Assembly: GCF_011927695.1 (NCBI RefSeq)
Contig: NZ_JAATJE010000001.1
Coordinates: 682,001 to 746,000 of the forward strand
DNA length: 64,000 bases
Source of the DNA: Sphingomonas jejuensis
GTDB taxonomy: Bacteria; Pseudomonadota; Alphaproteobacteria; Sphingomonadales; Sphingomonadaceae
Direction of reading: 5' to 3'
Under the pieces are notes generated by a model that searched no databases, was not told the DNA's origin, and was given only the letters and a program-made list of their open reading frames with translations. Shown in pieces: positions 9,897 to 63,456 of this stretch. Numbering within the stretch: the stretch's first letter is position 1; the number at the start of each line of letters is the position of its first letter. Both the position numbers and the translations under genes were made by a program.

Positions 9897-11009
9897 CTAG
9901 CGCGCGGAACCCATGCCCCTGGCCGAGCGGTCCAGGCTCATCAGGATGCCGATGCAGATCATCACGGTCATCATCGCCGATCCGCCGAAGCTGACCAGCG
10001 GCAGCGGGATGCCGACGACGGGGGCGAGACCCATGACCATCATCAGGTTGATGGCGACGTAGAAGAAGATCGTGCTGGCGAGCCCGGCAGCGGTGAGGCG
10101 CGAAAAGCGGTTGGGCGCGCGCGCGGACACCCGCATGCCCCAGCGGATGAGGAGCAGGAAGCCGCCGATCAGCAGCACGCCGCCGACGAGGCCCCATTCC
10201 TCCGCCATGGTGGCGAATACGAAATCGGTGTGCCCTTCGGGAAGATAGTCGAGGTGGCTCTGAGTGCCGTTCAAGAAGCCCTTGCCGAACAGGCCGCCGG
10301 AGCCGATCGCGATCTTCGACTGGCTGATGTGGTAGCCGGTGCCCAGCGGATCGGCCTCCGGATCGAGGAAGATCAGCACGCGGTTGCGCTGATAGTCGTG
10401 GAGCATGCTGAACGCGATCGGGAGCGCGGCGGCGAGCGCGAGGGCGCCGCCGACGAACAGCCGCATCGGCAGCCCCGCCAGGAACATCACCACGCCGCCG
10501 CCCGCGCAGATCATCAACGCGGTGCCGAGATCGGGCTGCAGCATCACGAGCGCGGCGGGCATCCCGATGAGCAGCGCGGCCGGCCACACGGCCGTGATCG
10601 TGCGGATCTGGCCGATCGGAAGCCGCGCGTAGAAGGCGGCGAGCGCCAAGACGATGCCCGGCTTCATGAACTCGGACGGTTGCAGGCGGATGAAGCCCAG
10701 ATCGATCCAGCGCTGGCTGCCGCCGCGCACCGCGCCGGCGAGCTCGACGGCAAACAGCAGCACCAGGGTGATGGCGTAGCCGGGCAGTGCGATGGCGCTC
10801 CAGAACTCTTCGCGCAGCCGGGACAGCGCGATGGCGAGGCCGGTGAAGACGGCGAAGCGGAGCCCCTGGGTGAAGGCCCAGGGCGAGATGCTGCCGCCGG
10901 CGGCCGAGTAGAGCACGGTAAGGCCGAAGCCGCCGATGGCGAGCACCAGAAGGATGATCCGCCATGGAAAGGCGCCCGCGATCCGCGCGGGGACGATCGA
11001 CAGCCTCAT
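9897..11009 (-). CDS. rodA: Peptidoglycan glycosyltransferase RodA
   Basis: A 370-residue SEDS-family polytopic membrane protein with about ten helices. It polymerises lipid II into glycan strands during rod elongation, together with PBP2. Recognisable segments are GSQRWIDLGFIRLQPSEFMKPG, the loop with LQPDLGTALM, and the C-terminal LPLVSFGGSAM, all typical of RodA/FtsW. The start ATG at 11007-11009 overlaps the mrdA stop (ATGA), so translation is coupled; a longer in-frame start upstream would sit inside mrdA and add non-homologous sequence. It is the last gene of mreBCD-mrdA-rodA. Confidence 0.95.
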   Translation of the reverse strand: MRLSIVPARIAGAFPWRIILLVLAIGGFGLTVLYSAAGGSISPWAFTQGLRFAVFTGLAIALSRLREEFWSAIALPGYAITLVLLFAVELAGAVRGGSQRWIDLGFIRLQPSEFMKPGIVLALAAFYARLPIGQIRTITAVWPAALLIGMPAALVMLQPDLGTALMICAGGGVVMFLAGLPMRLFVGGALALAAALPIAFSMLHDYQRNRVLIFLDPEADPLGTGYHISQSKIAIGSGGLFGKGFLNGTQSHLDYLPEGHTDFVFATMAEEWGLVGGVLLIGGFLLLIRWGMRVSARAPNRFSRLTAAGLASTIFFYVAINLMMVMGLAPVVGIPLPLVSFGGSAMMTVMICIGILMSLDRSARGMGSAR

Positions 11010-12946
11010 GCCGGCCGGCGGCCGGTGTCGGCATCCGCCTCGGCCGGGGGTGGTTCCGCCTTTGCGGCCTTCCAGGCGACCGCCTGGGCCGCCATGCGGG
11101 TTTCGATGTCGCCGCCCCATTCCGCCTCGAAGCGGGAGAGCGTTTCCATCGCCTGTGGTGGATCGAACAGATAGGTGAGGACGTCGCGGGCGACGGGTGC
11201 GGCCGCGCCCGACCCAGACATGCCATGTTCAATGACGACGGACGCGGCGTAGCGCGGATTGTCGACGGGCGCGAAGCCAATGAAGAGACCGTGATCCCGA
11301 TACTTCCACGGCACGTTCAGCCCGCCGCGCGCGCCGCCGGCGATGCGGCGGACCTGCGCGGTGCCGGTCTTTCCGCCCATGCGGATGCCGTCGAGCTGGA
11401 GCCGGCTGCGCACCGCGGTGCCGGCACCGTTCACGACCTCGTCCATGCCCGAGCGGATCAGCCCGATGCGTTCGGTCGGCACGTCGAGCGGGGGCGCCAC
11501 GATCGGCGCGTTCGCCAGGATGCGGGGCACGAGCGCGCGGCCGGATGCGATGCGCGCCGCCTGCACGGCGAGCTGCAGCGGACTGGTGAGGATATAGCCC
11601 TGACCGATGGAGGCATTGAGCGTGTCCGACTGCGTCCAGGCCTGATCGAAGCGGCGCTGCTTCCACGCCGGATCCGGCACGGTGCCGTAGCGCTGGGACG
11701 GGAAGGGCAGCGGATATTCCGCACCCAAGCCCAGTTCGCGCGCGGCCGCCGCCACGCCGTCCATCCCGACTTCCCGCCCCATCGTGTAGAAGTAGGTGTT
11801 GCAGCTTTTCGCGATCGCGCGGTGCAGATTGACGGGTCCGTGCCGTCCCAGGCAGCGGAAGAAGCGGTTGCCGAGCTGATAGCCGCCGGGGCAATTGACC
11901 GTGCGTTCGGGATCAACGCCGGCACGCAGGGCGGCGAGGGCGGTTGCCGGCTTGAAGGTGGAGCCCGGCGGGTAGAGCCCCTGCACCGTCTTGTTGGTGA
12001 GCGGGATGCGCTCGTCGGACGAGAGCATGTCCCATTCGTCGTGACTGATCCCGTCGGAGAAGCTGTTGGGATCGTAGGACGGCATCGACACCATCGCCAG
12101 GATGTCGCCCGACAGGGTGTCGATGACCACGACCGACCCGGACGTGTTGCCGAGGCGGCGCGCGGCATAAAGCTGCAGCCCGGCGTCGATCGTGAGCTTC
12201 AGCTGCTGCCCGGCGACATCGGGCCGGTCGGTGAGTTCGCGCACGGGCCGGCCGCGCGCGGTGACCTCCACGCGCTTCGCGCCGGGTCTTCCGCGCAGCC
12301 GATCCTCCAGGACCTTCTCGATCCCATCCTTGCCGATCTTGAAGCCGGGCGTGATGTAGAGCGGGTCGCGGGTTTCCTCATACTGTTTGGCAGAGGCCGG
12401 GCCGACATAGCCGATCAGGTGGCCGACCGCCGCGCCGTCCGGATAATGACGGGACCATCCGCGCACGGGCGCGACACCGGGCAGATCGGCCTGACGGACG
12501 CTGACGGCGGCGAAGCGATCCCAATCGAGGTTGGTTGCGACCTGCACCGGCTGATAGCCGCGCGCGTCCTCCAGATCCTGAAGGATGCGCGCGACGTCCT
12601 CGTCGGTGAGGCCGATGAGGCGGCGGAGCGCCGCGATCGTGGCGTCCCTGTCGCGGAGCCGTTCCGGAATGAGGTCGATGCGGAAATCGGCGCGATTGGT
12701 GGCGATCGGCTGTCCGTAGCGGTCGACGATCCACCCGCGCCGGGGCGGCACCAGCGTCATGTTGACGCGGTTGCTTTCGGCCAGGAGCGAATAGCGTTCG
12801 TTCTCGGCGACCGACAGCCAGCCCATCCGGCCGACGAGAAGCGCACCGAGCCCGAGCTGGGCGCCGCCGAGCACGAAGGATCGCCGCGCGAAACTGAACG
12901 CCTGCGTCGCTTCCGTCACCACGCGCGGCGGCCGCGTGCGCTTCAT
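11006..12946 (-). CDS. mrdA: Penicillin-binding protein 2 (elongasome transpeptidase)
   Basis: A 646-residue class B PBP that cross-links new glycan strands in the elongation complex with RodA. It has one N-terminal membrane anchor (about residues 25-45) and a pedestal domain. The transpeptidase carries the catalytic STFK at 329-332, SCN at 381-383 and KTGTAQ at 526-531. Length matches the family. It overlaps mreD upstream and rodA downstream by four bases each, so the three are translationally coupled. It is an expected beta-lactam target. Confidence 0.96.
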   Translation of the reverse strand: MKRTRPPRVVTEATQAFSFARRSFVLGGAQLGLGALLVGRMGWLSVAENERYSLLAESNRVNMTLVPPRRGWIVDRYGQPIATNRADFRIDLIPERLRDRDATIAALRRLIGLTDEDVARILQDLEDARGYQPVQVATNLDWDRFAAVSVRQADLPGVAPVRGWSRHYPDGAAVGHLIGYVGPASAKQYEETRDPLYITPGFKIGKDGIEKVLEDRLRGRPGAKRVEVTARGRPVRELTDRPDVAGQQLKLTIDAGLQLYAARRLGNTSGSVVVIDTLSGDILAMVSMPSYDPNSFSDGISHDEWDMLSSDERIPLTNKTVQGLYPPGSTFKPATALAALRAGVDPERTVNCPGGYQLGNRFFRCLGRHGPVNLHRAIAKSCNTYFYTMGREVGMDGVAAAARELGLGAEYPLPFPSQRYGTVPDPAWKQRRFDQAWTQSDTLNASIGQGYILTSPLQLAVQAARIASGRALVPRILANAPIVAPPLDVPTERIGLIRSGMDEVVNGAGTAVRSRLQLDGIRMGGKTGTAQVRRIAGGARGGLNVPWKYRDHGLFIGFAPVDNPRYAASVVIEHGMSGSGAAAPVARDVLTYLFDPPQAMETLSRFEAEWGGDIETRMAAQAVAWKAAKAEPPPAEADADTGRRPA

Positions 12947-51279: not shown

Positions 51280-51354
51280 GGGCGCGTAGCTCAGTGGTAG
51301 AGCACTGTGTTCACACCGCAGGGGTCGCAGGTTCAATCCCTGCCGCGCCCACCA
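51280..51354 (+). tRNA. tRNA-Val (anticodon CAC)
   Basis: 75 bases from GGGCGCG to an encoded CCA. The acceptor is GGGCGCG/CGCGCCC, the D arm GCTC/GAGC, the anticodon stem CTGTG/CGCAG with loop TTCACAC, and the T arm GCAGG/CCTGC with TTCAATC. Anticodon CAC reads GUG valine codons. A perfect terminator follows three bases later. Confidence 0.95.
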
Positions 51355-51497: not shown

Positions 51498-52409
51498 ATG
51501 ACAGACCTCGCCATCTTCTACGAACATCCGACCTGGTTCGAACCGCTGTTCGCCGCGCTTGAAAGACGCGGGATCGCGGCAACGCGGCTGACACCTGCCG
51601 GGCTTGCCTATGATCCGGCAGACCCCACGCCGCCGGCGCGCATGATCGTCAACCGGATCTCCATGTCGAGTGGATCACGCGCCACCGACACCCCGATCTT
51701 CTTCACCGCTTCGCTGCTCGATCATTGGAGCCAGCATGCGCGGGTCGTGAACGGGCGTCCGTTCCTGCTCGATGCGTCGAAAGCGCGGCAGCTTTCGCTC
51801 CTCTCCAGCCTCGGCATCGATGCGCCAGCCACGCGGATCGTTCACCGCCCGCAGGATGTGGCCGCAGCGGCCGAAGCCATCGGCTTTCCCCTGATCGTCA
51901 AGGCGAACATCGGCGGGGCGGGCGCGGGGATCGTCCGCTATGACGATATGGGCGCGCTGCAGGACGCGGTCGCCGACGGCACCCTGCCGACGAGCAGCGA
52001 CGGCGTGCTGCTGGTGCAGGATCTGGTGAGCGCGCGAGACGGGCGCGTGATCCGCATCGAGACCCTGGGCGGGCGTTTCCTTTATGCTCTCTCGGTGCTG
52101 TCGGACGGTGGGTTCGACCTTTGCCCGGCGGACGCCTGCGTGGCGACGCCGGGACGCGCCGCCGTTCGGATGGAAGCGATCACGCCCCCGGACGCTCTGA
52201 TCGAGGCTGCCGAGCGCATCGTTCAGGCCGCCGGGATCGAGGTCGGCGGTGTCGAGGTGATGATCGACGATCGCGATGGCACCCCGCGCTTCTACGACAT
52301 CAATGCGCTCAGCAACTTCGTGGCGAAACCGCTGGACGTGCTGGGGTGGGACCCGCACGACCGCTTCGTTGATTATCTGAGCCAGGTGATGGCGGAGGCG
52401 CGGGCGTGA
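51498..52409 (+). CDS. ATP-grasp domain protein (RimK-like), unknown substrate
   Basis: A 303-residue protein with an ATP-grasp fold. The nucleotide-binding Lys strand and glycine loop are FPLIVKANIGGAGAGIVRYD near residue 132. A lid-and-metal segment includes GVEVMIDDRDGTPRFYDINA near 250-265, where the usual E-x-N is D-x-N. ATP-grasp enzymes form amide or thioester bonds from a carboxylate and a nucleophile through an acyl phosphate; RimK relatives add amino acids to peptides or small molecules. The substrate cannot be predicted. It is the first gene of a five-gene operon and overlaps the flavin monooxygenase (GTGA). Its pairing with a methionine-type importer suggests a role in sulfur or amino-acid metabolism. 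Confidence 0.75.
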   Translation: MTDLAIFYEHPTWFEPLFAALERRGIAATRLTPAGLAYDPADPTPPARMIVNRISMSSGSRATDTPIFFTASLLDHWSQHARVVNGRPFLLDASKARQLSLLSSLGIDAPATRIVHRPQDVAAAAEAIGFPLIVKANIGGAGAGIVRYDDMGALQDAVADGTLPTSSDGVLLVQDLVSARDGRVIRIETLGGRFLYALSVLSDGGFDLCPADACVATPGRAAVRMEAITPPDALIEAAERIVQAAGIEVGGVEVMIDDRDGTPRFYDINALSNFVAKPLDVLGWDPHDRFVDYLSQVMAEARA

Positions 52410-53425
52410 GGTTCGGTTACTGGATGCCGGTCTTTGGCGGCTGGCTGCGCAACATTCCGGACGAGGGGATGGAGGCGAGCTGGGACTATGTGAAGCGGCT
52501 GGCGCAACGATCGGAGCAGATCGGCTATGATCTCTCGCTGATCGCGGAGCTCAACCTCAACGACATCAAGGGCACGGACGCGCCCGCGCTGGACGCCTGG
52601 TCGACGGCGGCGGCGCTTGCGGCGGTGACGGAGCGTCTCGAGCTGATGGTCGCGGTGCGCCCCAACTTCCACCAGCCGGCGCTCTTCGCGAAGGCGGCCG
52701 CCAATATCGACCGGATCGCGGGCGAAGGGCGGCTGTCGCTGAACGTGGTATCCTCCTGGTGGGCGGACGAGGCGCGGCAATATGGCCTTCAGTTCGACCA
52801 GCATGACGATCGCTATGCACGAACCGACGAGTGGCTGCAGGTCGTCGACGGATTGTGGACGGAGGATCGCTTCACCTTCGACGGGCGCTTCTACCGAATG
52901 GAAGATGCCATCGTCTCGCCCAAGCCCGCCACCCGGCCGACCGTCTATGCCGGCGGCGAGAGCGAGGCCGCCAAGACGATGATCGCCACGCGCTGCGATG
53001 CGTATGTCATGCACGGTGATCCGCCCGAGGCGATCGCCCCCAAGATCGCCGACATGAGCGCGCGGCGCGACGCAGCCGGCGGTGCGCCGATGCAATATGG
53101 CATGGCCGCCTACGCGATCGTGCGCGACAGCGAGGCGGAGGCGAAGGCCGAGCTGGACCGGATCACCACGGTCAGCGAGCTTCCCAAAGGCTATGCCAAT
53201 TTCGATCAATGGCTGTCGGGCACGCAGCTGGAGCGTGAGCTGAAGATCCAGGAATATTCGGTGTCCAACCGTGGCCTGCGGCCGAACCTGGTCGGCACGC
53301 CCGAGCAGCTGAAGCAGCGCATCGCCGATTATGAGGGCGCGGGGCTGGACTTGCTGCTGTTGCAGATGAGTCCGCAGGCTGAGGAGATGGAGCGCTTCGC
53401 CGCCCAGGTGATGGGCACGACATGA
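52406..53425 (+). CDS. Luciferase-like (LLM class) flavin-dependent monooxygenase
   Basis: A 339-residue TIM-barrel enzyme of the bacterial-luciferase/SsuD group. Segments are FGYWMPVFGGWLRNIPDEGM at the N-terminus, GYDLSLIAELNLNDIKG, VAVRPNFHQPALFAK, LSLNVVSSWWADEARQYGL and PTVYAGGESEAAKTM. These enzymes use reduced FMN from a separate reductase to oxidise small compounds, and many release sulfite from alkanesulfonates or sulfones. It starts at GTG 52406 within the end of the ATP-grasp gene and overlaps metN by four bases. No reductase is encoded next to it. The operon with a MetNIQ importer points to an organosulfur substrate. Confidence 0.85.
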   Translation: MRFGYWMPVFGGWLRNIPDEGMEASWDYVKRLAQRSEQIGYDLSLIAELNLNDIKGTDAPALDAWSTAAALAAVTERLELMVAVRPNFHQPALFAKAAANIDRIAGEGRLSLNVVSSWWADEARQYGLQFDQHDDRYARTDEWLQVVDGLWTEDRFTFDGRFYRMEDAIVSPKPATRPTVYAGGESEAAKTMIATRCDAYVMHGDPPEAIAPKIADMSARRDAAGGAPMQYGMAAYAIVRDSEAEAKAELDRITTVSELPKGYANFDQWLSGTQLERELKIQEYSVSNRGLRPNLVGTPEQLKQRIADYEGAGLDLLLLQMSPQAEEMERFAAQVMGTT

Positions 53426-54360
53426 TCCGTTTCGAAGGTGTGTCCAAGCGTTTCGCCGGAACGGGTGGCGAGGCGCTGCGCGCGATCGACCTCGATGTGG
53501 CGGCAGGCGAGATCTTCGGCGTGATCGGTGCCTCCGGCGCAGGAAAGTCCACGCTGGTACGGCTGGTGAATGCGCTGGAGCGGCCTACCTCCGGGCGCGT
53601 GCTGGTGGACGGTGTCGATGTCGCGGCCCTCGATGCCGCCGGGCTGCGCGGGCTTCGTCGCAAGGTTGGCATGATCTTCCAGAGCTTCGGACTGCATTCC
53701 TCGCTGACCGTTGCTGACAATGTCGGGTTGCCGCTGCGGCTGGCGGGACGCGAGGCGCGGGAGCGGCAGGAACGCGTGGCCGTCCTGATCGATCGCGTCG
53801 GCCTGGCCGTACATGAGGCCAAATATCCCGCCCAGCTGTCCGGCGGGCAGAAGCAGCGCGTGGGGATCGCTCGCGCGCTGGCGACCGGCCCGTCCATCCT
53901 GCTGTGCGACGAGCCGACAAGCGCGCTGGACCCGGAGACGACGCGGTCGGTGCTGCGATTGCTGCGCGAGCTGAACCGGGAGCTGGGCCTCACCATCATG
54001 CTCATCACGCACGAGATGGAGGTCGTGCGGGAGGTGTGCGACCGGGTGGCGGTGATCGATGGCGGCACGGTGGTGGAGATGGGCGCGGCGGCTGACATCT
54101 TCCTGGACGGACAGCATCCAGCGACGCGGCGTCTGATCTCCGAGGCGGGCGAGGGCGCTCCGGCGGTCGCGCCCGAGGGAATGGCGCTGGTCCGACTGAC
54201 CCGCCGTGGTGCCGGGTCGGCGGCGCCGATCGACGGGGCGGAGGTGCTGGAAGGGCGGATCGGGCGCATCGGTGGCGAAAGCTACAGCGATCTGGTGCTC
54301 GCTGTTCAACCGTCGGAGGTCGAGCGGCTCTCCAGCCTCGGCCGCGCGGATCGGATTTGA
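53422..54360 (+). CDS. metN: Methionine-type ABC importer ATPase MetN
   Basis: A 312-residue ABC ATPase. It has Walker A GASGAGKST near residue 36, a Q-loop in IFQSFGLHSSLTV, signature LSGGQKQRVGIARAL and Walker B ILLCDEPTSALDPE. The C-terminal NIL domain that binds methionine and shuts the transporter in E. coli is short here (about 55 residues, from ALVRLTRRG) and lacks the usual central helix. The assignment to the Met/NlpA importer family rests on the following permease and lipoprotein. The gene is tightly coupled to both neighbours. Confidence 0.9.
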   Translation: MIRFEGVSKRFAGTGGEALRAIDLDVAAGEIFGVIGASGAGKSTLVRLVNALERPTSGRVLVDGVDVAALDAAGLRGLRRKVGMIFQSFGLHSSLTVADNVGLPLRLAGREARERQERVAVLIDRVGLAVHEAKYPAQLSGGQKQRVGIARALATGPSILLCDEPTSALDPETTRSVLRLLRELNRELGLTIMLITHEMEVVREVCDRVAVIDGGTVVEMGAAADIFLDGQHPATRRLISEAGEGAPAVAPEGMALVRLTRRGAGSAAPIDGAEVLEGRIGRIGGESYSDLVLAVQPSEVERLSSLGRADRI

Positions 54361-54361
54361 C

Positions 54362-55018
54362 ATGTTCGAGAATGTGGATCCTGCGGAGATCGCGCAGGCG
54401 TGCATCGACACGCTTGTCATGCTGGGCGCATCGCTCGCCCTGACGGTTCTGATCGGCATACCGCTGGGCGTGCTGCTGTACCTGACGGACCGGCGGCGAC
54501 CGCTTGCCCGGCCGTGGGCGAACCTGGCCGTCGGCACGATCGTAAACGTGCTGCGATCGGTGCCGTTCATCATCCTTTTGATCGTGATGATCCCGGTGAC
54601 GGTGCTGATCGTCGGAACCTCGCTGGGCGTCGCAGGGGCGATCCCGCCGTTGGTGGTGGGGGCGGCGCCCTTCTATGCCCGGCTGGTGGAGACGAGCCTC
54701 CGCGAGGTCGATCGCGGCACGGTGGAGGCAACTCAGGCGATGGGTGCGACCACATGGCAGCTGGTGACGCGCACCTTGCTGCCGGAAGCGCGCCCGGGCC
54801 TGATCGCCGGCGGCACGGTGACCGCAATCGCGCTCGTCTCCTTCACGGCCATGGCAGGAGTCGTCGGCGCAGGCGGGTTGGGAGACCTGGCGATCCGGTT
54901 CGGCTATCAGCGGTTCCAAACCGACGTGATGCTGGTGACCGTGCTGTTGCTGGTGGTGCTGGTGCAGGCGCTCCAATGGTTGGGCGACATGCTCGTTCGG
55001 CGCACGACGCGCCGCTAG
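54362..55018 (+). CDS. metI: Methionine-type ABC importer permease MetI
   Basis: A 218-residue permease with five membrane helices. It has the EAA coupling loop (EATQAMGATTWQLVTRTLLPEA) that docks on MetN. The start at 54362 lies one base after the metN stop. Sequence such as LGVAGAIPPLVVGAAPFYARL and TAMAGVVGAGGLGDLAIRFGY is typical of MetI. The substrate may be D- or L-methionine or a related sulfur compound. Confidence 0.92.
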   Translation: MFENVDPAEIAQACIDTLVMLGASLALTVLIGIPLGVLLYLTDRRRPLARPWANLAVGTIVNVLRSVPFIILLIVMIPVTVLIVGTSLGVAGAIPPLVVGAAPFYARLVETSLREVDRGTVEATQAMGATTWQLVTRTLLPEARPGLIAGGTVTAIALVSFTAMAGVVGAGGLGDLAIRFGYQRFQTDVMLVTVLLLVVLVQALQWLGDMLVRRTTRR

Positions 55019-55038
55019 CTTTTCAGGGGATGAGACGC

Positions 55039-55839
55039 ATGAAGAGACGCAGCTTTCTGGGCGCAGGCCTCGCCCTGACGCTGGCTGCCTGTTCCGGCAG
55101 TGGCGACGACCAGACGGATGGCACCACGCTGAGCGTCGCCGCGACAGCCGTGCCGCACGCGGAGATCCTGGAGCATGTGAAGCCTGTGCTCGCACGCGAG
55201 GGCGTGAACCTGGAGGTGCGCGTCTTCAACGATTACGTCCAGCCGAACGTCCAGGTCGCCGAGGGGCGGATGGACGTGAATTATTTCCAGACCAAGCCGT
55301 ACCTGGACGATTTCAACCGCAACCGCGGGACCCAGCTGCAGACGATCGCGGGGGTCCATGTCGAGCCGCTTGGCGGATATTCGCGCAAGCACCGGACGCT
55401 GAACGATCTGCCGCAGGGTGCGACTGTCGCGATCCCGAGCGAGGCGAGCAACAACGGGCGTGCCTTGCTGGTGATGCAGAAGGCCGGCCTCATCCGGTTG
55501 CGTGATCCGGCCAACCCGCTGGCGAGCGTGCGCGACATCGTCGCGAACCCGAAGAACCTGCAGATCCGGGAACTGGAGGCGGCGACGCTGCCGCGGGTGC
55601 TGGGCGAGGTCGATCTCGCGCTGATCAACACGAACTATGCTCTCGATGCCGGGCTAAGCCCGGTGCGCGACGCGCTGATGATCGAGGGCGCCGACAGTCC
55701 GTACGTCAACTATGTCGTGGGTCAGCCTGGCGCTGCCGACGACGAGCGGGTGCAAAAGCTGATGGCGGCGTTGCGGAGCCCGGAGACGCGCGCCTTTATC
55801 GAGCGGACTTACAGCGGCGCCGTCCTGCCGGCCTTCTAA
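55039..55839 (+). CDS. metQ: Methionine-type ABC importer substrate-binding lipoprotein MetQ
   Basis: A 266-residue NlpA-family binding protein. It has a twin-arginine-like start (KRRSFLGAG) and lipobox LTLAAC, so the mature protein is lipid-anchored in the periplasm. Then come AVPHAEILEHVKPVLAREG, GRMDVNYFQTKPYLDDFN and IPSEASNNGRALLVMQKAGL, all NlpA hallmarks. The start at 55039 is preferred because AGGGG lies about 10 bases upstream; an in-frame ATG at 55030 is also present but too close to it. It is the last gene of the operon, before the hairpin at 55853-55884. Confidence 0.92.
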   Translation: MKRRSFLGAGLALTLAACSGSGDDQTDGTTLSVAATAVPHAEILEHVKPVLAREGVNLEVRVFNDYVQPNVQVAEGRMDVNYFQTKPYLDDFNRNRGTQLQTIAGVHVEPLGGYSRKHRTLNDLPQGATVAIPSEASNNGRALLVMQKAGLIRLRDPANPLASVRDIVANPKNLQIRELEAATLPRVLGEVDLALINTNYALDAGLSPVRDALMIEGADSPYVNYVVGQPGAADDERVQKLMAALRSPETRAFIERTYSGAVLPAF

Positions 55840-55911: not shown

Positions 55912-57720
55912 TCAATAGGCCAGCGCCGCGCCATCGGCGCGAGGATCGCTGGCAGCGGCATAGACCATGGGGCCGTCCTGTCGGAGCCGTTCCACATTGT
56001 GGTAGCGGCCAAAGCCGCCGTCCGATCGGCCGATCGACCATCCCATGCGCTCCAGCTCGGCCCGAACCGCGTCCGGAACCCCTGCCTCCAGGTGCAGGAG
56101 GCCGGTCGCCGGCATGTCGGGATCGTCCTCCCCCATCGACTCCGACGATCCTTCGTGCCGCCAGCGGGGCGCGTCTCCCGCGGCCTGCACGTCAAGGCCA
56201 TGGTCCACCATGTTCATCAGGACCTGCGCCTGTCCCTGCGGCTGCATCGCGCCGCCCATGACGCCGAACGACATCCAGGGCGTGCCATCCTTTGTCGCGA
56301 AGCCGGGAATGATGGTCTGGAACGGGCGCTTGCCGGGGGCATAGATGTTGGGGTGGCCGTCCTGCAGGCTGAAGAGCTGCCCGCGGTCCTGGAACATGAA
56401 GCCGAGGCCGTCGGGCACCAGCCCCGACCCCATCCCGCGGAAGTTGGACTGGATCAGCGACACCATCATGCCATCCTTGTCGGCGGCCGTAAGGTAGGTC
56501 GTGTCGCCCTGCGCCGGTGCGTTGCCGGGACGGACGTCGGGGTTGATGCGGTCCGGGCGGATCAGGCGGGCGCGTTCCCGCGCATAATCCTTCGACGCGA
56601 GCCAAGCGAAGGGGACGGGCGACGCGGTGGGATCTGCATAGAAGCGAGCACGATCCTCGAAGGCGAGCCGTTTCGCCTCGGCGCCCAGATGGATCGAGCG
56701 CGCCGACTGGAAGCCGGCACCTGCCATGTCGAAGGTTTCGAGCATGTTGAGGATCTGCAGCGTGGCAACCCCCTGCGTGTTCTCGCCAATCGCGTGCACG
56801 GTCACGCCACGATAGTCGGTGGTGATCGGGTCGGTCATTGTCGCGCGGTGGGCACGCAGATCCGCCCGCGTCATCCAGCCGCCGATACGCCTGAAATAGC
56901 GTTCGATCGTGGCGGCGATCTCGCCGTCGTAGAAGGCGTCTGCCCCGCCCTCCGCGATGGCGCGGTAGGTGCGCGCGAGGTCGGCGTTGCGGAAAATCTC
57001 GCCGGTGTTGGGCGCATTGCCGCCCGGCGCATAGGTGCGGATCGCGTTCTCGGTTTCCTCGATGCCGTTGTTGGCGCGGCGGAATGCGACAATGCTGCGG
57101 CCGACATAATAAGCGATGATCGGCGCCATCGGACGGCCTTCCTCCGCCATGGCGATGGCGGGGGCGAGCACGTCATGCCACGGCAGCTTGCCGTAGCGGC
57201 GGTGCAGTTCCTGCCAGCCGGCGACCGTGCCAGGCACGGACACGCTGACGGCGCCGAGCGGCGGTAGCGTGCCGTTCGGCCGGGCGCGCGAGCGGACGGT
57301 GTCGAGCGACAGGCCGCGCGGGGAGCGCCCGGAACTCTGCACGCCGACCACCTTCCGTTCGGCCGGGGACCACAGCATGGCATAAAGATCGCCGCCGATG
57401 CCGCATGAGGTCGGCTCCAGGAAGCCGAGGCAGGCATTGATGGCGATGGCCGCGTCGGCGGCCGACCCGCCTGCCTTCAGGATCTCTATGCCGGCCAGCG
57501 TGGCCAGGGGTTGCGCGGAAGCGGCGGCCCCCCCGCTGCCATAGACTGCCGAGCGGGAGCCGTAGCTTGCACCAACCGGCCGGTCGCCCGACCGAAGATC
57601 GGGCCGGCGCAGATTGTCGGGTGCCGCCTGGGGGCGCGCGGAAATACGCGTTTCGGTCTGGGCGAGGAGGGGGGCCGCGGCGGCGGCGGGAAGGGCGGCA
57701 AGAAAGGTGCGACGGCGCAA
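55912..57720 (-). CDS. ggt: Gamma-glutamyltransferase
   Basis: A 602-residue exported enzyme that cleaves or transfers the gamma-glutamyl group of glutathione and related peptides. The N-terminus RRRTFLAALPAAAAAPLLA looks like a Tat or Sec signal. The self-cleaving precursor has the nucleophile Thr407 (GDTTYL) that starts the small subunit. SSGRSPR and GSGLVPDGLGFMFQDRG are substrate-site segments. The last residue is a plain AY end. In this setting it would recover Cys and Glu from external glutathione. Convergent with the metNIQ operon. Confidence 0.93.
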   Translation of the reverse strand: MRRRTFLAALPAAAAAPLLAQTETRISARPQAAPDNLRRPDLRSGDRPVGASYGSRSAVYGSGGAAASAQPLATLAGIEILKAGGSAADAAIAINACLGFLEPTSCGIGGDLYAMLWSPAERKVVGVQSSGRSPRGLSLDTVRSRARPNGTLPPLGAVSVSVPGTVAGWQELHRRYGKLPWHDVLAPAIAMAEEGRPMAPIIAYYVGRSIVAFRRANNGIEETENAIRTYAPGGNAPNTGEIFRNADLARTYRAIAEGGADAFYDGEIAATIERYFRRIGGWMTRADLRAHRATMTDPITTDYRGVTVHAIGENTQGVATLQILNMLETFDMAGAGFQSARSIHLGAEAKRLAFEDRARFYADPTASPVPFAWLASKDYARERARLIRPDRINPDVRPGNAPAQGDTTYLTAADKDGMMVSLIQSNFRGMGSGLVPDGLGFMFQDRGQLFSLQDGHPNIYAPGKRPFQTIIPGFATKDGTPWMSFGVMGGAMQPQGQAQVLMNMVDHGLDVQAAGDAPRWRHEGSSESMGEDDPDMPATGLLHLEAGVPDAVRAELERMGWSIGRSDGGFGRYHNVERLRQDGPMVYAAASDPRADGAALAY

Positions 57721-57811
57721 AGGGCAGGCTCCGGCTGTGAAGCCGTCAGCCTAGCCGGATTGCTGCGACGCGCCAGCCCCTTGCCCACCAGCCGAGCGCC
57801 GGCGGAGGGGA

Positions 57812-59374
57812 TCAACTGCCGTGGATCTCCGGAGAGCCATGTTCGAGTACGAAGGTGGAGCGCGTGCGCACCGGCGCGCCCGGTGTCGTCACCTGGTCGA
57901 CCACCCGCCACTGCGTCTGGAAGGTCTGGGGCGTGACCTCGCACAGCGCGTAGCCGCGCTGGTCGTTGGTATCGAGGAGATAAGGATTGCGCGCCTTCAG
58001 CCGGTCGGTGAAGGCGCGGCGGTCGGAGCCGTTGCCGCCCGAGCTCATCGAGGTGGTGACGAATTCGGCGCCGACCGGATCGCCCTGGCCACGGTCCCGG
58101 CGAAGCTGCCCTGCGAAGTTCTGATGCTCGTCACCCGTCAGGACCACGACATTACCGGTGCGGCCGAAGCGCTCCAGCATCCGCTCGCGCGGGGCCGTGT
58201 AGGCGGCCCAGCTGTCCATGTTGCGGATCGGCTCCGGCTCGTCGCCGGTGCGCCGATCGAGCGGCATAACCATGATCTGCTGTCCGATGAGGTTCCAGCG
58301 GGCGCGGCTGGCACCCAGCCCTTCGTTCAGCCAGCGCTCCTGCACCTGGCCGAGGACGGCCGCATCGGGATCGTCGACGCCTGCGCAATCCGGCCGGAAG
58401 CCATCCTGGCAGGGCTGGTCCGTGCGGCTGCCGCGGGTGTCGAGGAAATGAGCCGACATCAGCGAGCCATAGGTCTGGCGACGATGGTAGATCGGCTTGT
58501 CCGCGCCGAGCGCGAGCGCGGCACGGCGGAGCGGCATGTGCTCATAATAGGCCTGAAGCGCCATCCGCTTGCGAAGCGCGAACAGCTCTGGCGGAACATC
58601 GTCCTGCGGGATGCCGTCCACCCAGTTGTTCTCGACCTCATGATCGTCGGGCGTGATGAACCAGGCGGCGGCGGCATGCGCCAGCATCAGGTTCGGGTCG
58701 CTCTTCACCTCCGTGTAGCGGAGACGATAGTCGTCGATCGACTGAAGCTCCGTCGGGCGGCGATGTTCGCGCACCCGCTCCCGAAGGTTGCCATAGGCGA
58801 TGCGAACAGGAGACGAGGAGTATTCGTAAATATAGTCGCCGTAGTGGTAGACGAAATCGAGGTCCGGCTCGGCCGCGAGGTGGCGATAGCCTGTGTAGAG
58901 GCCGTCCTCGAAATGCTGGCAGCCGGCAACGGCGAAGCGGACGCGGTCAAGAGCGGCACCGGCCGCAGGCACGGTCTGGGCGCGGCCGACGAAGGAGCGG
59001 GCGCTACCGACCTGGAAGCGGTAGAAATAAGGGCGACCAGGCTGCAGCCCGTCGACCTCGACATGGACGCTGTGCGCGAGCTCCGGACGGGCGAGCGCCG
59101 TTCCGCTCCTCGCGATGGTCCGGAAGCCTTCATCCTCGGCCACCGACCACTCCACCTCGACCGCCGCCATCGGCATTCCGCCGCCGGGAGCATCCGCATC
59201 GGCAATCAGCCGGGTCCAGATGACGAAGCCGTCCGGTGCGGGATCGCCGGCCGCGACGCCGAGCACGAACGGATCGCGAAGGAACAGCGGCTGGGCGCGA
59301 AGGATGGCGGGAGCGGCCAGCATCGAAGCTGCGCCTGCGCCGAGCAGCTGCCGGCGACCGATCAGAAGAGTCAT
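57812..59374 (-). CDS. phoD: PhoD-family alkaline phosphatase/phosphodiesterase
   Basis: A 520-residue exported enzyme. A Tat signal (IGRRQLLGAG) ends near ILRAQ. The N-terminal beta-sandwich has LGVAAGDPAPDGFVIWTRL, the family signature. The metal site is spread over VAGCQHFE, YHYGDYIYEY, TPDDHEVENNW and LTGDEHQNF, which hold Fe and Ca in PhoD. It releases phosphate from phosphomono- and diesters in the periplasm. A Pho half-site, TTGTCAC on the minus strand, lies about 30 bases upstream of the start. It sits in a scavenging block with peptidases. Confidence 0.92.
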   Translation of the reverse strand: MTLLIGRRQLLGAGAASMLAAPAILRAQPLFLRDPFVLGVAAGDPAPDGFVIWTRLIADADAPGGGMPMAAVEVEWSVAEDEGFRTIARSGTALARPELAHSVHVEVDGLQPGRPYFYRFQVGSARSFVGRAQTVPAAGAALDRVRFAVAGCQHFEDGLYTGYRHLAAEPDLDFVYHYGDYIYEYSSSPVRIAYGNLRERVREHRRPTELQSIDDYRLRYTEVKSDPNLMLAHAAAAWFITPDDHEVENNWVDGIPQDDVPPELFALRKRMALQAYYEHMPLRRAALALGADKPIYHRRQTYGSLMSAHFLDTRGSRTDQPCQDGFRPDCAGVDDPDAAVLGQVQERWLNEGLGASRARWNLIGQQIMVMPLDRRTGDEPEPIRNMDSWAAYTAPRERMLERFGRTGNVVVLTGDEHQNFAGQLRRDRGQGDPVGAEFVTTSMSSGGNGSDRRAFTDRLKARNPYLLDTNDQRGYALCEVTPQTFQTQWRVVDQVTTPGAPVRTRSTFVLEHGSPEIHGS

Positions 59375-59406
59375 GACGGGGCCTTGGGAGCCTTGTGTGT
59401 TGATTT

Positions 59407-59413
59407 CGTGACA
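59407..59413 (-). promoter_or_regulatory. Possible Pho half-site upstream of phoD
   Basis: On the minus strand TTGTCAC (plus-strand GTGACAA) lies about 33 bases before the phoD start. It matches one half of the CTGTCAY-N4-CTGTCAY Pho box well, while the second half (TCAACAC) matches poorly. Confidence 0.3.
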
Positions 59414-59459
59414 ATCTTCCGGTCGCCGGCCCGTCCCTCAGGCCGGCGACCGGTCCCTG

Positions 59460-61601
59460 TCAGCGGCGGACGCCCATCTCTTCGAGCAGACGGTCGGCAC
59501 CGTCGACCTTGTCCATCGTCCACAGCATGAAGCGGCTGTCGACATGGATCGTGCGGTTGATGGTCGGGTCGTAGGACCAGTCGGAGATCACGCCGTCGAG
59601 CGTGCCGTCGAATGCAAGGCCGACGAACTCGCCGCGCGCGTTGAGCGTGGCCGAACCCGAATTGCCGTTGGTGATGTCCACCGTCGACAGATAGTCGACG
59701 GGCAGGGTGCCGAGCGACGGGGCCACGTATCGGCCATAGTCGCGGTCGCGGATCAGCTCGACCGCACGGTCCGGCAGGTCGAACTCGCCTTCACCAGTGT
59801 GCTTGGCGAGAAGGCCTTCGGCGGTGGTGAACGGGGTCCAGATCAAGCCGTCGCGCTGACGCCCCGTCACCTTGCCATAGGTGAAGCGCAAAGAGCCGTT
59901 TGCGTCCGGGTAGAGGGGGCGGCCGTTCGCGTCTGCCCATTCCCGCATGCCCTGAAGATAGACTGAGCGCGCCGCCTGCGTACGGCCGGCCCGCGTCTTC
60001 GCTTCCGTCTCGCGGCGGAGACCCCAGTCGTAGGACGCGACAGCAAGCCGGATGAACGGATCGGTGGACCGCTCGAAATCGGCCACCGGACGGTCGAGCC
60101 AGGCGAGCCGGGCTGCCGTTTCGTCAAGCTCCGTATCGGCATAGAGGCGATCGAGCCCGATCTGCTCCAGCGTCCGTTCAAAGGCGGCGTCGCGGCTGGC
60201 GGCATCGACCTTCCTATATTCAACAAGAGCCTGCTCCAGCACGGCGCGATCGACGCGGGCGTCGTACCGGCGTTCGATCTGCTGCAGCCGCTGCTGGATC
60301 GGCAGCCGGTCGCGCTGCTGGTAGCCGCTCTCGCGCTCGGCATCCGGCTTCTGCTGCTCCTGCGCATACCGGTAGAGGAGCTTGGCGGCGGCATAGAGCT
60401 GCGCCCGATTGATGGTGCCGAGGCGCGTGTCGGCGAGCGCCGTGGCGTTCGCCTCCTGAACCAGCGCGTCGAGATCCCGTGCGGCGGTGGCATATGGCTG
60501 GCGCCGGCGTCCGCCTTCGCGGATCCAGCTGCGATAGGCATTCTGCTGCTCGGTCTTGCGCGCGGCGAGATCGATCGCCTTGGCGCCGGCGATCTCCCCC
60601 TGTGACTTCTTCTCGTAATTCTCGACGCCCGCCAGGATCGAGGCATATTTGATCTGGGCGGCCTGATCCCCCTCCGTGCGCTGCTCGATCAGGTTGGCGT
60701 AGTCGGTGAGCAGCCGAGTCTGGACCGGGTAGAGCTGATCGAACTGGAAGATCGCCTCCTCTGCCGTGACGAGGCGGGAGGTGGTGCCGGGGAAGCCCGC
60801 TACCATCACGAAGTCGCCGTCGGTGACCCCTTCGGTCGCGATGCGCAGGTGTGAGCGCGGACGGTAAGGCACGTTGGCCTCCGAATAGTCCGCCGAGGAG
60901 CCGTCGGGTGCGACATAGGCACGGTAGAAGCCGAAGTCGCCCGTGTGGCGCGGCCACATCCAGTTGTCCGTCTCGCCGCCGAAGTTGCCGATGCCCATGG
61001 CTGGCGCGTAAACGAGGCGGACGTCCTTGATCTCAAGCTGCTGCTGCAGGAAGTAGGTGGAGCCGCCATAATAGGCGCGCACGTCGCAGCGCCGGCTCGG
61101 CTGGCGCTCGCACGCGGCGATGAGGCTCTTCCGGTTTTCCTCGAGCCGGTTGTAGCGGTCGATGCCGGTGGTGCGCGCGGTCAGGCCACGGTTCATGTCG
61201 GCCGTGACGTCGCGCAGTTCTTCGATCACGAAGATGCGGCTTCCGGGCGCAGCGCGCACCTCGTCCTGCAGACGGCGGGCCAGGAAACCGTTGGTGAGGC
61301 GATCCTGATCCGGGCTCGAGTTATACTGAAGCGAGCCCTGCACGCAGTGGTGATTGGTGGCAACGAGGCCCTGCGGCGAGACAAAGCTGGCCGAGCAACC
61401 ACCAAGCGAGACGATCGCGTTCAGCGGTGCGGCCTGCAGGTTCGACAAGAGCGCCGGATCGATCTCCAGCCCTGCCGCACGCACCTGGGCGGCGATATCC
61501 TGCGTCTGGCGGGGGAGCCACATGCCCTCATCCGCCCACGCCGCCGTCGCGATCATCGTCGCCGACAGTGCGGCCGCCCCACCCAACACCCAAGCCTTCA
61601 T
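59460..61601 (-). CDS. S46-family dipeptidyl peptidase (DPP7/DPP11-like)
   Basis: A 713-residue exported exopeptidase that cuts dipeptides from free N-termini. The signal peptide ends near ATAAWADEG. The chymotrypsin-like domain has His85 (TNHHCVQG) and Ser648 (NGNSGSATL), with the catalytic Asp expected in the DFGFYRAY region. DNWMWPRHTGDF is an S46 signature. The position that is Gly in DPP7 and Arg in DPP11 appears to be Ser here (LDGVISDW), so P1 preference is uncertain. The start at 61601 gives the signal peptide; an ATG at 61631 adds ten polar residues. Divergent from the M14 peptidase. Confidence 0.9.
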   Translation of the reverse strand: MKAWVLGGAAALSATMIATAAWADEGMWLPRQTQDIAAQVRAAGLEIDPALLSNLQAAPLNAIVSLGGCSASFVSPQGLVATNHHCVQGSLQYNSSPDQDRLTNGFLARRLQDEVRAAPGSRIFVIEELRDVTADMNRGLTARTTGIDRYNRLEENRKSLIAACERQPSRRCDVRAYYGGSTYFLQQQLEIKDVRLVYAPAMGIGNFGGETDNWMWPRHTGDFGFYRAYVAPDGSSADYSEANVPYRPRSHLRIATEGVTDGDFVMVAGFPGTTSRLVTAEEAIFQFDQLYPVQTRLLTDYANLIEQRTEGDQAAQIKYASILAGVENYEKKSQGEIAGAKAIDLAARKTEQQNAYRSWIREGGRRRQPYATAARDLDALVQEANATALADTRLGTINRAQLYAAAKLLYRYAQEQQKPDAERESGYQQRDRLPIQQRLQQIERRYDARVDRAVLEQALVEYRKVDAASRDAAFERTLEQIGLDRLYADTELDETAARLAWLDRPVADFERSTDPFIRLAVASYDWGLRRETEAKTRAGRTQAARSVYLQGMREWADANGRPLYPDANGSLRFTYGKVTGRQRDGLIWTPFTTAEGLLAKHTGEGEFDLPDRAVELIRDRDYGRYVAPSLGTLPVDYLSTVDITNGNSGSATLNARGEFVGLAFDGTLDGVISDWSYDPTINRTIHVDSRFMLWTMDKVDGADRLLEEMGVRR

Positions 61602-61671
61602 GTTCCGGTCATCCTTGTCACTTTGTCTCATGCTGATTAGCCATCGGCGATCTGCCCCGCAAGGAACGCCA

Positions 61672-63456
61672 ATGATCCTCGCCACAATGTTGTTTGCCGC
61701 CCAGGCCGCCGTGCCGCCGGCCCCAGCGCTGCCGATGGCGGCGCCTCTGCCGCCGGCGCTGCCCTGGTCAGGCCGAAGCGAAGGCCTGATCGCGCGTCCG
61801 GACGACCCGTGGATCACGCCGGCGGAGCGCGCACGTTTTGAGGCAACGCCGAACCTTGCCGACAGCTACGCCTGGCTCCAGCGGCTGGATGCCGCATCCG
61901 ACCTCGTCTCGATCGAGCGGATCGGCACCAGTCCGGAAGGCCGGCCGCTGATCGCGGTCACGGCGCGCAAGGGGAGCGCGGCCAAGCCGGTGGTGCTGAT
62001 CCAGGCGGGCATCCACGCCGGCGAGATCGACGGCAAGGACGCCGGCATGATGTTGCTGCGCGACATCGCGCTGCGCGGCAAGGACGGGTTGCTGGACGAC
62101 GCCACCTTCGTCTTCGTGCCGGTCTTCAACGTCGACGGGCATGAGCGGTCATCGCGCTGGAGCCGTCCCAACCAGCGCGGCCCGCGCGAGCAGGGGTGGC
62201 GAACCACGGCGCAGAACCTCAATCTCAATCGCGATTACCTGAAGGCGGACGCGCCCGAGATGCAGGCGATGATCGCCCTGATCCGCAGGCTTGATCCCGC
62301 GCTCTACATCGACGTGCACGTCACCGACGGCATCGATTACCAGTATGACATCACCTACGGCTTCAACGGCTGGGGCGGGGAAGATGCCTATTCGCCCGCG
62401 ATCGCCCGCTGGATGGACGGCCGCTTGCGCCCTGCCTTTGATCGGGCTCTCATACGGGGCGGGCACATTCCGGGGCCGCTGATCTTTGCGACCGACGACC
62501 GCGATCCTGCCGTCGGCTTGTCCGCCGGACCATCGAGCGGACGCTTCTCGCAAGGCTATGGCGACCTGCGTCACATGCCCTCGATCCTGGTCGAGAACCA
62601 CAGCCTGAAGCCTTACCGCCAGCGAGTGCTCGGCACCTATGTCTTGATGGAAGAAGCGCTGCGCCTGGTCGGCGCGGAGCGAAGCGCGGTGCAGCGCGCC
62701 GTGGCGGAGGATCGAGCGGCCCGGCCGACAGAGATGTCGCACGGATGGCAGGCGGAAGAACAGCCAACCACCCGTCGCTGGCGAGGCGTTGCGTGGGAAC
62801 GGTACCGTTCGGCCGCGTCCGGCCGCGACGAGATCCGGTGGCTTGGACAGGCTCGCGATGGTGAGATCGCGTCGACCGGGCAACGGTTCGCGCCGGCCGC
62901 GCCGCTGCCGTCGGCCTGGTGGGTGCCGGCCACCAAGCCGGACCTGATCGCGGTGCTTCGCCTGCATGGCGTGGAGATGACGGAGGCCGCCGGGTCGACG
63001 GCGCTCGACCTCGACATGGTGCGGCTGCCGCTTGCGCGGCTGTCACAAAGGGCAAGCGAGGGGCGCGTGCCGATGAACGTCGGGGAGGGGCGCCACGAGC
63101 GACGCCGCGTCGTCATGCCGCCCGGGTCAGTTCGGGTGCCGGCGGACCAGCCGCTCGGCCTCGTCGCGGCCGCGCTGCTGGAGCCGGACAGCCGCGAGTC
63201 CCTCCTGGCGTGGGGAGCGTTTCCGGAGATCCTCGAGCGCACGGAGTATATCGAGGGCTATGCGATCGCGCCGCTGGCCGACCGCATGCTGGAAGCGGAT
63301 CCGGCGCTTCGCGCGGCGTTCGAGGAGCGGATTGCGGCGGATCCGGCCTTTGCAGCGGACGGCGACGCGCGGCTGGCCTGGTTCTATGCGCGCACGCCTT
63401 ACTACGACGACCGCTACCTTCTTTATCCGGTCGGCCGGGAGACTGTGGAACGCTGA
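61672..63456 (+). CDS. M14-family zinc carboxypeptidase, exported
   Basis: A 594-residue protein. It has a hydrophobic signal (LATMLFAAQAAVPPA) and a Pro-rich stretch, then an M14 domain with the zinc motif HAGE (His115, Glu118) and third ligand His216 (YIDVHVTDG). The substrate and catalytic part is GWRTTAQNLNLNRDYLKA. Residues 350-594 are extra C-terminal domains, longer than classic carboxypeptidases. The start at 61672 follows AAGGAACGCC. It is divergent from the S46 gene with 70 bases between, and the two peptidases together would break external peptides into usable units. Confidence 0.88.
   Translation: MILATMLFAAQAAVPPAPALPMAAPLPPALPWSGRSEGLIARPDDPWITPAERARFEATPNLADSYAWLQRLDAASDLVSIERIGTSPEGRPLIAVTARKGSAAKPVVLIQAGIHAGEIDGKDAGMMLLRDIALRGKDGLLDDATFVFVPVFNVDGHERSSRWSRPNQRGPREQGWRTTAQNLNLNRDYLKADAPEMQAMIALIRRLDPALYIDVHVTDGIDYQYDITYGFNGWGGEDAYSPAIARWMDGRLRPAFDRALIRGGHIPGPLIFATDDRDPAVGLSAGPSSGRFSQGYGDLRHMPSILVENHSLKPYRQRVLGTYVLMEEALRLVGAERSAVQRAVAEDRAARPTEMSHGWQAEEQPTTRRWRGVAWERYRSAASGRDEIRWLGQARDGEIASTGQRFAPAAPLPSAWWVPATKPDLIAVLRLHGVEMTEAAGSTALDLDMVRLPLARLSQRASEGRVPMNVGEGRHERRRVVMPPGSVRVPADQPLGLVAAALLEPDSRESLLAWGAFPEILERTEYIEGYAIAPLADRMLEADPALRAAFEERIAADPAFAADGDARLAWFYARTPYYDDRYLLYPVGRETVER

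Follow-up and report, generated by a model that had tools for sequence, protein, structure and literature searches.

Here, we describe a run of five genes at positions 51498-55839 of a stretch of 64,000 nucleotides from Sphingomonas jejuensis (contig NZ_JAATJE010000001.1, positions 682,001 to 746,000; the whole stretch is termed the window in the following). According to the coordinates of the open reading frames all five lie on the plus strand in the order ligase–LLM–metN–metI–metQ. The first gene (51498-52409) encodes an ATP-grasp amino-acid ligase of 303 residues that is LysX/RimK-like and belongs to a family with the signature FDLCPADAC. It is followed by the gene of a luciferase-like monooxygenase (LLM; 52406-53425, 339 residues, GTG start), presumably dependent on reduced flavin mononucleotide (FMNH2) and related to the solved structures 3rao and 8vw6. 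The remaining three genes encode a MetN-type ATP-binding cassette (ABC) ATPase (53422-54360, 312 residues), a MetI-type ABC permease (54362-55018, 218 residues) and a MetQ/NlpA-type lipoprotein (55030-55839, 269 residues if counted from 55030, with an alternative start at 55039). The ligase stop and the LLM start share the four bases GTGA (52406-52409) and the LLM stop and the metN start the four bases ATGA (53422-53425), as had been noted in an original prediction made from the DNA alone, and metQ follows metI after 11 or 20 bases, depending on its start (55030 or 55039), which is also within the distance given there. Between metN and metI, in contrast, lies a gap of one base and not the overlap that had been read. 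The observation of the five-gene set as such is confirmed; its interpretation, in which an imported organosulfur compound could be oxidised and a product conjugated or released, is partly supported.

The comparison with related loci reveals that ligase and LLM are a conserved, translationally coupled pair. The best 80 of 235 relatives were compared, most of them from Sphingomonas and some of them cut by contig ends; they partly share loci with the genome survey described below (L079 and L106 with L025 and L026; L032 with L023). The LLM gene is located directly downstream of the ligase gene in 79 of these 80 loci, and wherever the junction was measured (78 loci) the stop codon of the ligase and the start codon of the LLM overlap, by one base in 50 loci and by four in 28. 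L074, where the LLM gene is split in two, was left out of this count; the split gene is directly followed there by another RimK-type ATP-grasp gene of larger size (9981-11345). Such a regular stop/start overlap is more than chance. MetNIQ genes are found downstream of the pair in 30 of the 80 loci, i.e. in the same gene order as in S. jejuensis, and upstream of it in three, if MetN matches below 45% identity and any match covering less than 30% of the query are discarded. Since contig ends cut some loci, 33 of 80 is a lower bound. The records of L060, L061 and L108 are titled Microvirga, Arthrobacter and an actinobacterium, respectively, but contain the sphingomonad version of the locus, so these titles are probably wrong. 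The genome survey gives a similar picture: the ligase was detected at E 1e-25 or better in 35 of 397 genomes of the family (own genome included, one match being a fragment) and the LLM in 17 of 204 (own genome included), each time with coordinates that place a ligase next to it. Of 20 further loci, 16 show ligase and LLM as neighbours. A search of 398 Pseudomonadota genomes with strict cut-offs gave the LLM only in S. jejuensis itself and in one genome of the same family, and a second, largely coinciding Pseudomonadota sample gave it only in that same-family genome. The claim that these genes belong together is thus supported, and in close relatives the enzyme genes do lie next to metNIQ.

From spacing and conservation we infer that the five genes form one transcript. 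The operon status rests on these two properties because pattern scans gave no convincing promoter or terminator: a consensus promoter scan yielded a single promoter-like site on the opposite strand and none convincing for the operon, and a terminator scan two terminator-like sites, roughly at the level of shuffled sequence and none of them convincing. When k-mers were counted in the regions upstream of the operon in the window and of the pair in 27 of the 80 loci (28 regions in total), no shared regulatory motif was obvious, and in an Rfam scan of the window only tRNAs reached the gathering score. Upstream of the operon a tRNA-Val is located (51280-51354). Downstream, a gamma-glutamyltransferase gene (55912-57720, minus strand) converges on the operon; its participation in the system is rejected, as none of the 80 loci contains a match over 30% of its length. 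Together with a PhoD-like phosphatase and a peptidase S46 gene it occupies the minus strand from 55912 to 61817, and none of these is found beside the operon in the 80 loci. An all-against-all comparison of open reading frames of at least 60 residues from the 80 loci returned, as families commoner than MetNIQ, the pair itself and open frames overlapping it. Flanking families present in 14 to 21 loci (cyclophilin, CorA, DUF2171, alcohol dehydrogenase-type and ALAD proteins; four of nine tested families are without Pfam match) look like local synteny. Next to the pair in L025 (1631-5364) genes for a glutathione-synthetase-like ATP-grasp protein, a MATCAP-domain protein and an N-formylglutamate amidohydrolase were seen.

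The importer genes match their broad families. The MetN-type ATPase reaches 119.4 bits (ABC_tran), the MetI-type permease 69.1 bits (BPD_transp_1) and MetQ 302.4 bits (Lipoprotein_9/NlpA, PF03180), with all three staying below the curated NCBIfam cut-offs (MetN equivalog 293.9 of 499.7, MetI 202.6 of 212 bits, MetQ/NlpA subfamilies 209.4 of 374 and 200.7 of 228.85). The window MetQ is the sole NlpA-family match in the genome; four of its 22 PDB matches are named MetQ or methionine-binding and most of the others just lipoprotein. MetN proteins typically carry a C-terminal NIL domain. No match to this domain (PF09383) was found in the window MetN or in the MetN of L033, and it is kept in the operon MetNs of L027 and L036.

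MetNIQ could also import methionine independently of the pair and simply share its operon. MetQ exceeds the cut-off in eight of 204 family genomes (ten at E 0.001), and in three of these eight sphingomonad genomes the 15 kb surrounding MetNIQ contain neither a ligase nor an LLM match; moreover, MetNIQ comes and goes on an LLM tree that was built with a quick method and covers, besides the window itself and two sequences from Deinococcus, 52 of the 80 related loci (eight changes by parsimony, two of them forced by well-supported branches). Both findings would suit an independent importer. In five of the eight genomes, however, MetQ is situated inside the ligase–LLM locus (MetQ and LLM together in 5 of 204 genomes, p 1.1e-4 in a Fisher test that ignores relatedness), the importer accompanies the pair in two arrangements, downstream and upstream, and nine loci without MetNIQ possess another amino-acid importer in its place. 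A merely shared operon is therefore regarded as distinctly improbable.

This other importer is an SDF symporter, first spotted by eye among the neighbours in 35 loci and then searched with three SDF queries. It is found directly beside the pair in nine of the 80 loci, none of which is a MetNIQ locus: downstream in L061, L080, L092, L093, L097 and L099, and divergently upstream in L041, L048 and L086. It was examined with Pfam in L061, L080 and L093 and with NCBIfam in L041 and L099. Three of the 20 further loci (L186, L193, L198) show the same arrangement. In more distant members of the ligase family the link to importers recurs, since on plasmids of Pediococcus acidilactici (L208, L209) and in L162 an SDF symporter directly precedes the ligase. 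In Spirosoma a ligase relative, two amino-acid permeases and an LLM stand in a row (in L207 the ligase lies 297 bases before the permeases). The Spirosoma LLM was ruled out as a member of the same family as the window LLM, as it is only 25% identical and sulfonatase-like; being of another type, it makes Spirosoma support the link between ligase and importer more than the exact pair. Finally, two Deinococcus plasmids encode the same LLM (61-63% identity) after a different ATP-grasp ligase without significant match to the window ligase, and the run in D. deserti includes genes annotated as D-cysteine desulfhydrase and amino acid racemase. The core of the system hence consists of the ligase and the monooxygenase, and the amino-acid importer is the part that can be exchanged, because MetNIQ is separable, SDF symporters occur at other loci and Deinococcus uses another ligase. 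That an importer is part of the system, as originally proposed, is upheld, but a system specific for MetNIQ is not, given that MetNIQ is absent from other loci, nine of them with an SDF symporter. That unrelated importers and unrelated ligases take the same places is the best indication that an amino acid is imported, ligated and oxidised by this system.

The ligase matches the RimK-like ATP-grasp family (PF08443) with 33.5 bits (gathering score 21) over residues 94-206 only and remains below the cut-off of the RimK family alpha-L-glutamate ligases (TIGR00768, 49.3 vs 143.4 bits); no NCBIfam curated model among those scanned names it at its cut-off. In its AlphaFold model (mean pLDDT, i.e. predicted local distance difference test score, of 86.9 from a 48-row alignment) the fold is closest to ArgX/LysX (3vpb with Z 26.9, root-mean-square deviation 2.4, 272 aligned residues and 16% identity; 3vpd with Z 26.7), followed by RimK (Z 25.4), and Foldseek likewise puts LysX/ArgX first. 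The ATP-grasp ligases PsnB and DcsG are also among the fold neighbours. The signature F-x-L-C-P-A-[DE]-x-C (residues 206-214, positions 52113-52139, plus strand) is kept in 30 of 32 family members in a hand-picked alignment of sequences from sphingomonads, other Alphaproteobacteria, Spirosoma and Pediococcus; the exceptions are L179, a copy cut by a contig end, and L029. The signature partly falls in a low-confidence loop of the model (211-218). Residues K135, E253, D267 and N269, which we take to be the ATP-grasp ligand positions, are kept in 31 or 32 of the 32 members. Ligases with this signature are seen in Alphaproteobacteria, Bacteroidota and Bacillota. The GSWGR motif of LysW recognition in LysX/ArgX is absent from the 303-residue sequence, and a relaxed form of the LysW-type EDWGE tail was found in none of 17005 stop-to-stop segments of at least 40 residues in all reading frames of the window and the 80 loci, the rest of the genome lying outside this search. 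A LysX/ArgX-like reaction with a carrier protein is not supported, since no LysW-type tail (acidic-WG-acidic C-terminus) is found near the ligase, and a small-molecule partner is therefore more likely.

The LLM fits Bac_luciferase (PF00296) over its full length (195.5 bits, residues 1-315, gathering score 27.9). Its nearest PDB entries, 3rao (E 7e-120) and 8vw6 (E 3e-116), belong to the same LLM subfamily and carry only the labels putative luciferase-like monooxygenase and alkanesulfonate monooxygenase. Other structures matched are SfnG, MsuD, SsuD and the pyrimidine monooxygenase RutA. Such relatives invite the assumption of a desulfonation pathway, in which the LLM would release sulfite from an imported sulfonate or sulfone and the ligase would handle the carbon product. 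Spirosoma offers some support for it: the LLM there closely resembles 7olf (E 1e-127) and 7oh2 (E 3e-125), which bear the names methanesulfonate sulfonatase and alkanesulfonate monooxygenase. The window LLM, however, remains below the cut-offs for SsuD/MsuD (TIGR03565, 167.9 vs 518.2 bits) and for the dimethylsulfone monooxygenase SfnG (TIGR04021, 237 vs 382.95 bits). The sulfonate-binding residues of MsuD are W195, R225 and, in the RGGA loop, R296 (PMC8234197); these align with H203, A234 and N288 of the window LLM, though R289 adjoins N288 and the alignment is gapped in that loop.

The sulfur metabolism of the genome also speaks against desulfonation. The S. jejuensis genome (99.71% complete, 10 contigs) has no match to sulfite reductase (NIR_SIR), which was matched in 11 of 14 control genomes. 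The PAPS-reductase domain (PAPS_reduct) gave a single weak match of 38 bits (above the cut-off of 22.5) in a protein of 373 residues, which was not accepted as CysH or CysD. This search covered one genome with one model per step. Assimilatory sulfate reduction is not visible in this genome (L213: C4:28883-29461). As sulfite reductase is unmatched, sulfite should be a poor sulfur source here, and a route that keeps sulfur reduced fits better. Since the LLM lacks the MsuD binding residues and no sulfite reductase was matched, sulfur nutrition from sulfonates via sulfite is unlikely, and we rate desulfonation as highly improbable for this locus. The predicted action of the LLM on sulfonates or sulfones is accordingly not supported. 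With its sulfonatase-like LLM Spirosoma indicates that other versions of the system may differ.

By analogy with known pathways, the operon may serve to take up an amino acid, most likely one that resembles methionine or an S-alkyl cysteine, and to degrade it oxidatively, with the ligase blocking it and the LLM cleaving the conjugate, a proposal that we prefer tentatively and at somewhat less than even chances. We infer substrate, order of steps and products as follows. According to family and gene order MetNIQ would import the amino acid. At the expense of ATP, the ATP-grasp enzyme would then engage the amino group of this amino acid in an amide bond, so that a blocked conjugate, for instance a dipeptide, results. 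The LLM, supplied with FMNH2 by a reductase encoded elsewhere (four matches to FMN-reductase domains occur in the genome and could provide it), would oxidise this conjugate and break its C–S bond, with the sulfur staying at the thiol or sulfenate level. General dipeptidases might finally free the product, which would account for the lack of a dedicated deacylase gene. Overall this would be an acylate–oxidise–deacylate scheme with a ligase replacing the acetyltransferase. One neighbourhood hints further at sulfur: in L163 (5987-6967) a distant ligase gene follows those of a Cys/Met-metabolism enzyme dependent on pyridoxal phosphate and an OsmC-like protein, in the same orientation with ends overlapping or touching. 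L165 (6682-7662), with the same genus code, shows a distant ligase in a similar-looking setting.

Among the closest analogues is the yxe (scm) operon for S-(2-succino)cysteine (2SC) breakdown in Bacillus subtilis, which also combines an amine-blocking enzyme with an FMN-dependent monooxygenase and keeps the sulfur reduced. There, N-acetylation of 2SC precedes its oxidation by the monooxygenase, which shows a strong preference for acetylated substrate, and deacetylation comes last (PMC9706529). In contrast with the N-acetyltransferase YxeL and the dedicated deacetylase YxeP of that operon (PMC9706529), an ATP-grasp ligase and no conserved deacylase are found here, the Pfam search of the five-gene run having returned neither an N-acetyltransferase nor a deacetylase; the window LLM also belongs to another subfamily than YxeK. 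Similar flavin-dependent C–S cleavage of N-blocked cysteine derivatives is described for the CmoO/CmoJ salvage of S-alkyl cysteines in soil bacteria, where CmoJ acts on N-acetyl-S-alkyl cysteine sulfoxides; however, CmoJ groups with YxeK and DszA, and two flavoenzymes participate instead of one (PMC10863075). LysX and ArgX, the closest folds, are ATP-grasp ligases that attach an amino acid through its amino group to the carboxyl group of a carrier (PMC10433800); they differ from the window ligase by their GSWGR motif, their LysW-type partner tail and their biosynthetic setting. The Pseudomonas sfn/msu pathways for sulfones and sulfonates share the LLM superfamily, and in P. putida ABC transporter genes are predicted near sfn; the window LLM differs by its missing sulfonate-binding residues, and the excerpts of that account mention no ATP-grasp ligase (PMC8234197). 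A search of the open-access literature, weak evidence of absence as it is, found no described pathway that unites an ATP-grasp enzyme with an LLM or flavin monooxygenase, or MetNIQ with an LLM, so that the earlier statement about the novelty of this gene set still stands.

Several findings weigh against ligase-primed cleavage of a sulfur amino acid. With 101.7 bits against a cut-off of 279.7, the window LLM stands well apart from the NtaA/DmoA-type monooxygenases, so that cleavage of an N-acylated thioether is proposed by analogy only. The fold score of RimK lies barely under that of LysX/ArgX, which means that the fold alone does not dictate blocking of the amino group of a free amino acid. 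Neither a deacylase nor an acetyltransferase was found as conserved neighbour in the 80 loci. The ligase occurs without LLM in L094, L029 and four of the 20 further loci, and none of 19 loci with distant ligase relatives has an LLM like that of the window nearby, hence the ligase family has other uses. (Copies without LLM neighbour are those of L029, L189, L190, L196 and L197, with L029 also lacking the cysteine signature.) The MetNIQ arrangement is clustered on the LLM tree (none of 200 shuffles was as low), so the 30 and 33 MetNIQ loci are not independent cases. The Spirosoma LLM keeps the W/R/R sulfonate residues in the alignment to MsuD, which also favours desulfonation. Furthermore, 38 of the 80 loci, some cut by contig ends, have neither MetNIQ nor an adjacent SDF symporter, and the symporter of L061, the only one for which solved structures were compared, has its nearest matches among transporters of aspartate and glutamate and so gives no pointer to sulfur.

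The last two points are at the same time arguments for two other pathways. A pair that often stands without importer, together with PsnB and DcsG among the fold neighbours of the ligase, would suit a small biosynthetic pathway, in which a dipeptide-like ligase product is tailored by the LLM into a signal, an antimetabolite or a metal ligand and the importer supplies the precursor. This seems decidedly unlikely, since the 80 loci share no other conserved gene family next to the pair, the recurrent neighbours of which are importers. The L061 symporter and the match of the LLM to RutA, on the other hand, would suit a pathway that degrades or detoxifies an amino acid without sulfur: imported by SDF, APC or MetNIQ proteins, this amino acid would be ligated first, and the LLM would then hydroxylate it or open its ring. 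Against this stand MetNIQ as the commonest importer (33 of 80), the methionine-related names among the PDB matches of MetQ, the cysteine-type enzymes adjoining the LLM of D. deserti and the genome without visible sulfate reduction; we consider it unlikely.

The occurrence of the pair beside unrelated importers suggests an undescribed recovery of sulfur or carbon from unusual amino acids. A more general proposal can be formulated, doubtful as it is when taken as a whole: ligases with the F-x-L-C-P-A-[DE]-x-C signature might prime imported amino acids by amide formation, with a coupled LLM cleaving the conjugate in sphingomonads, and such ligase-primed oxidative C–S cleavage with exchangeable importers might permit life on organic sulfur without visible sulfate reduction. 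If true, the blocking of an amine before flavin-dependent cleavage would be a general strategy of amino-acid salvage and would have evolved with no fewer than two unrelated kinds of blocking enzyme (acetyltransferases and ATP-grasp ligases). It would further assign a function to the LLMs grouped with 3rao and 8vw6 as well as to a ligase family that none of the scanned curated models names at its cut-off, and it would suggest the sulfur source of a sphingomonad that shows no sulfite reductase.

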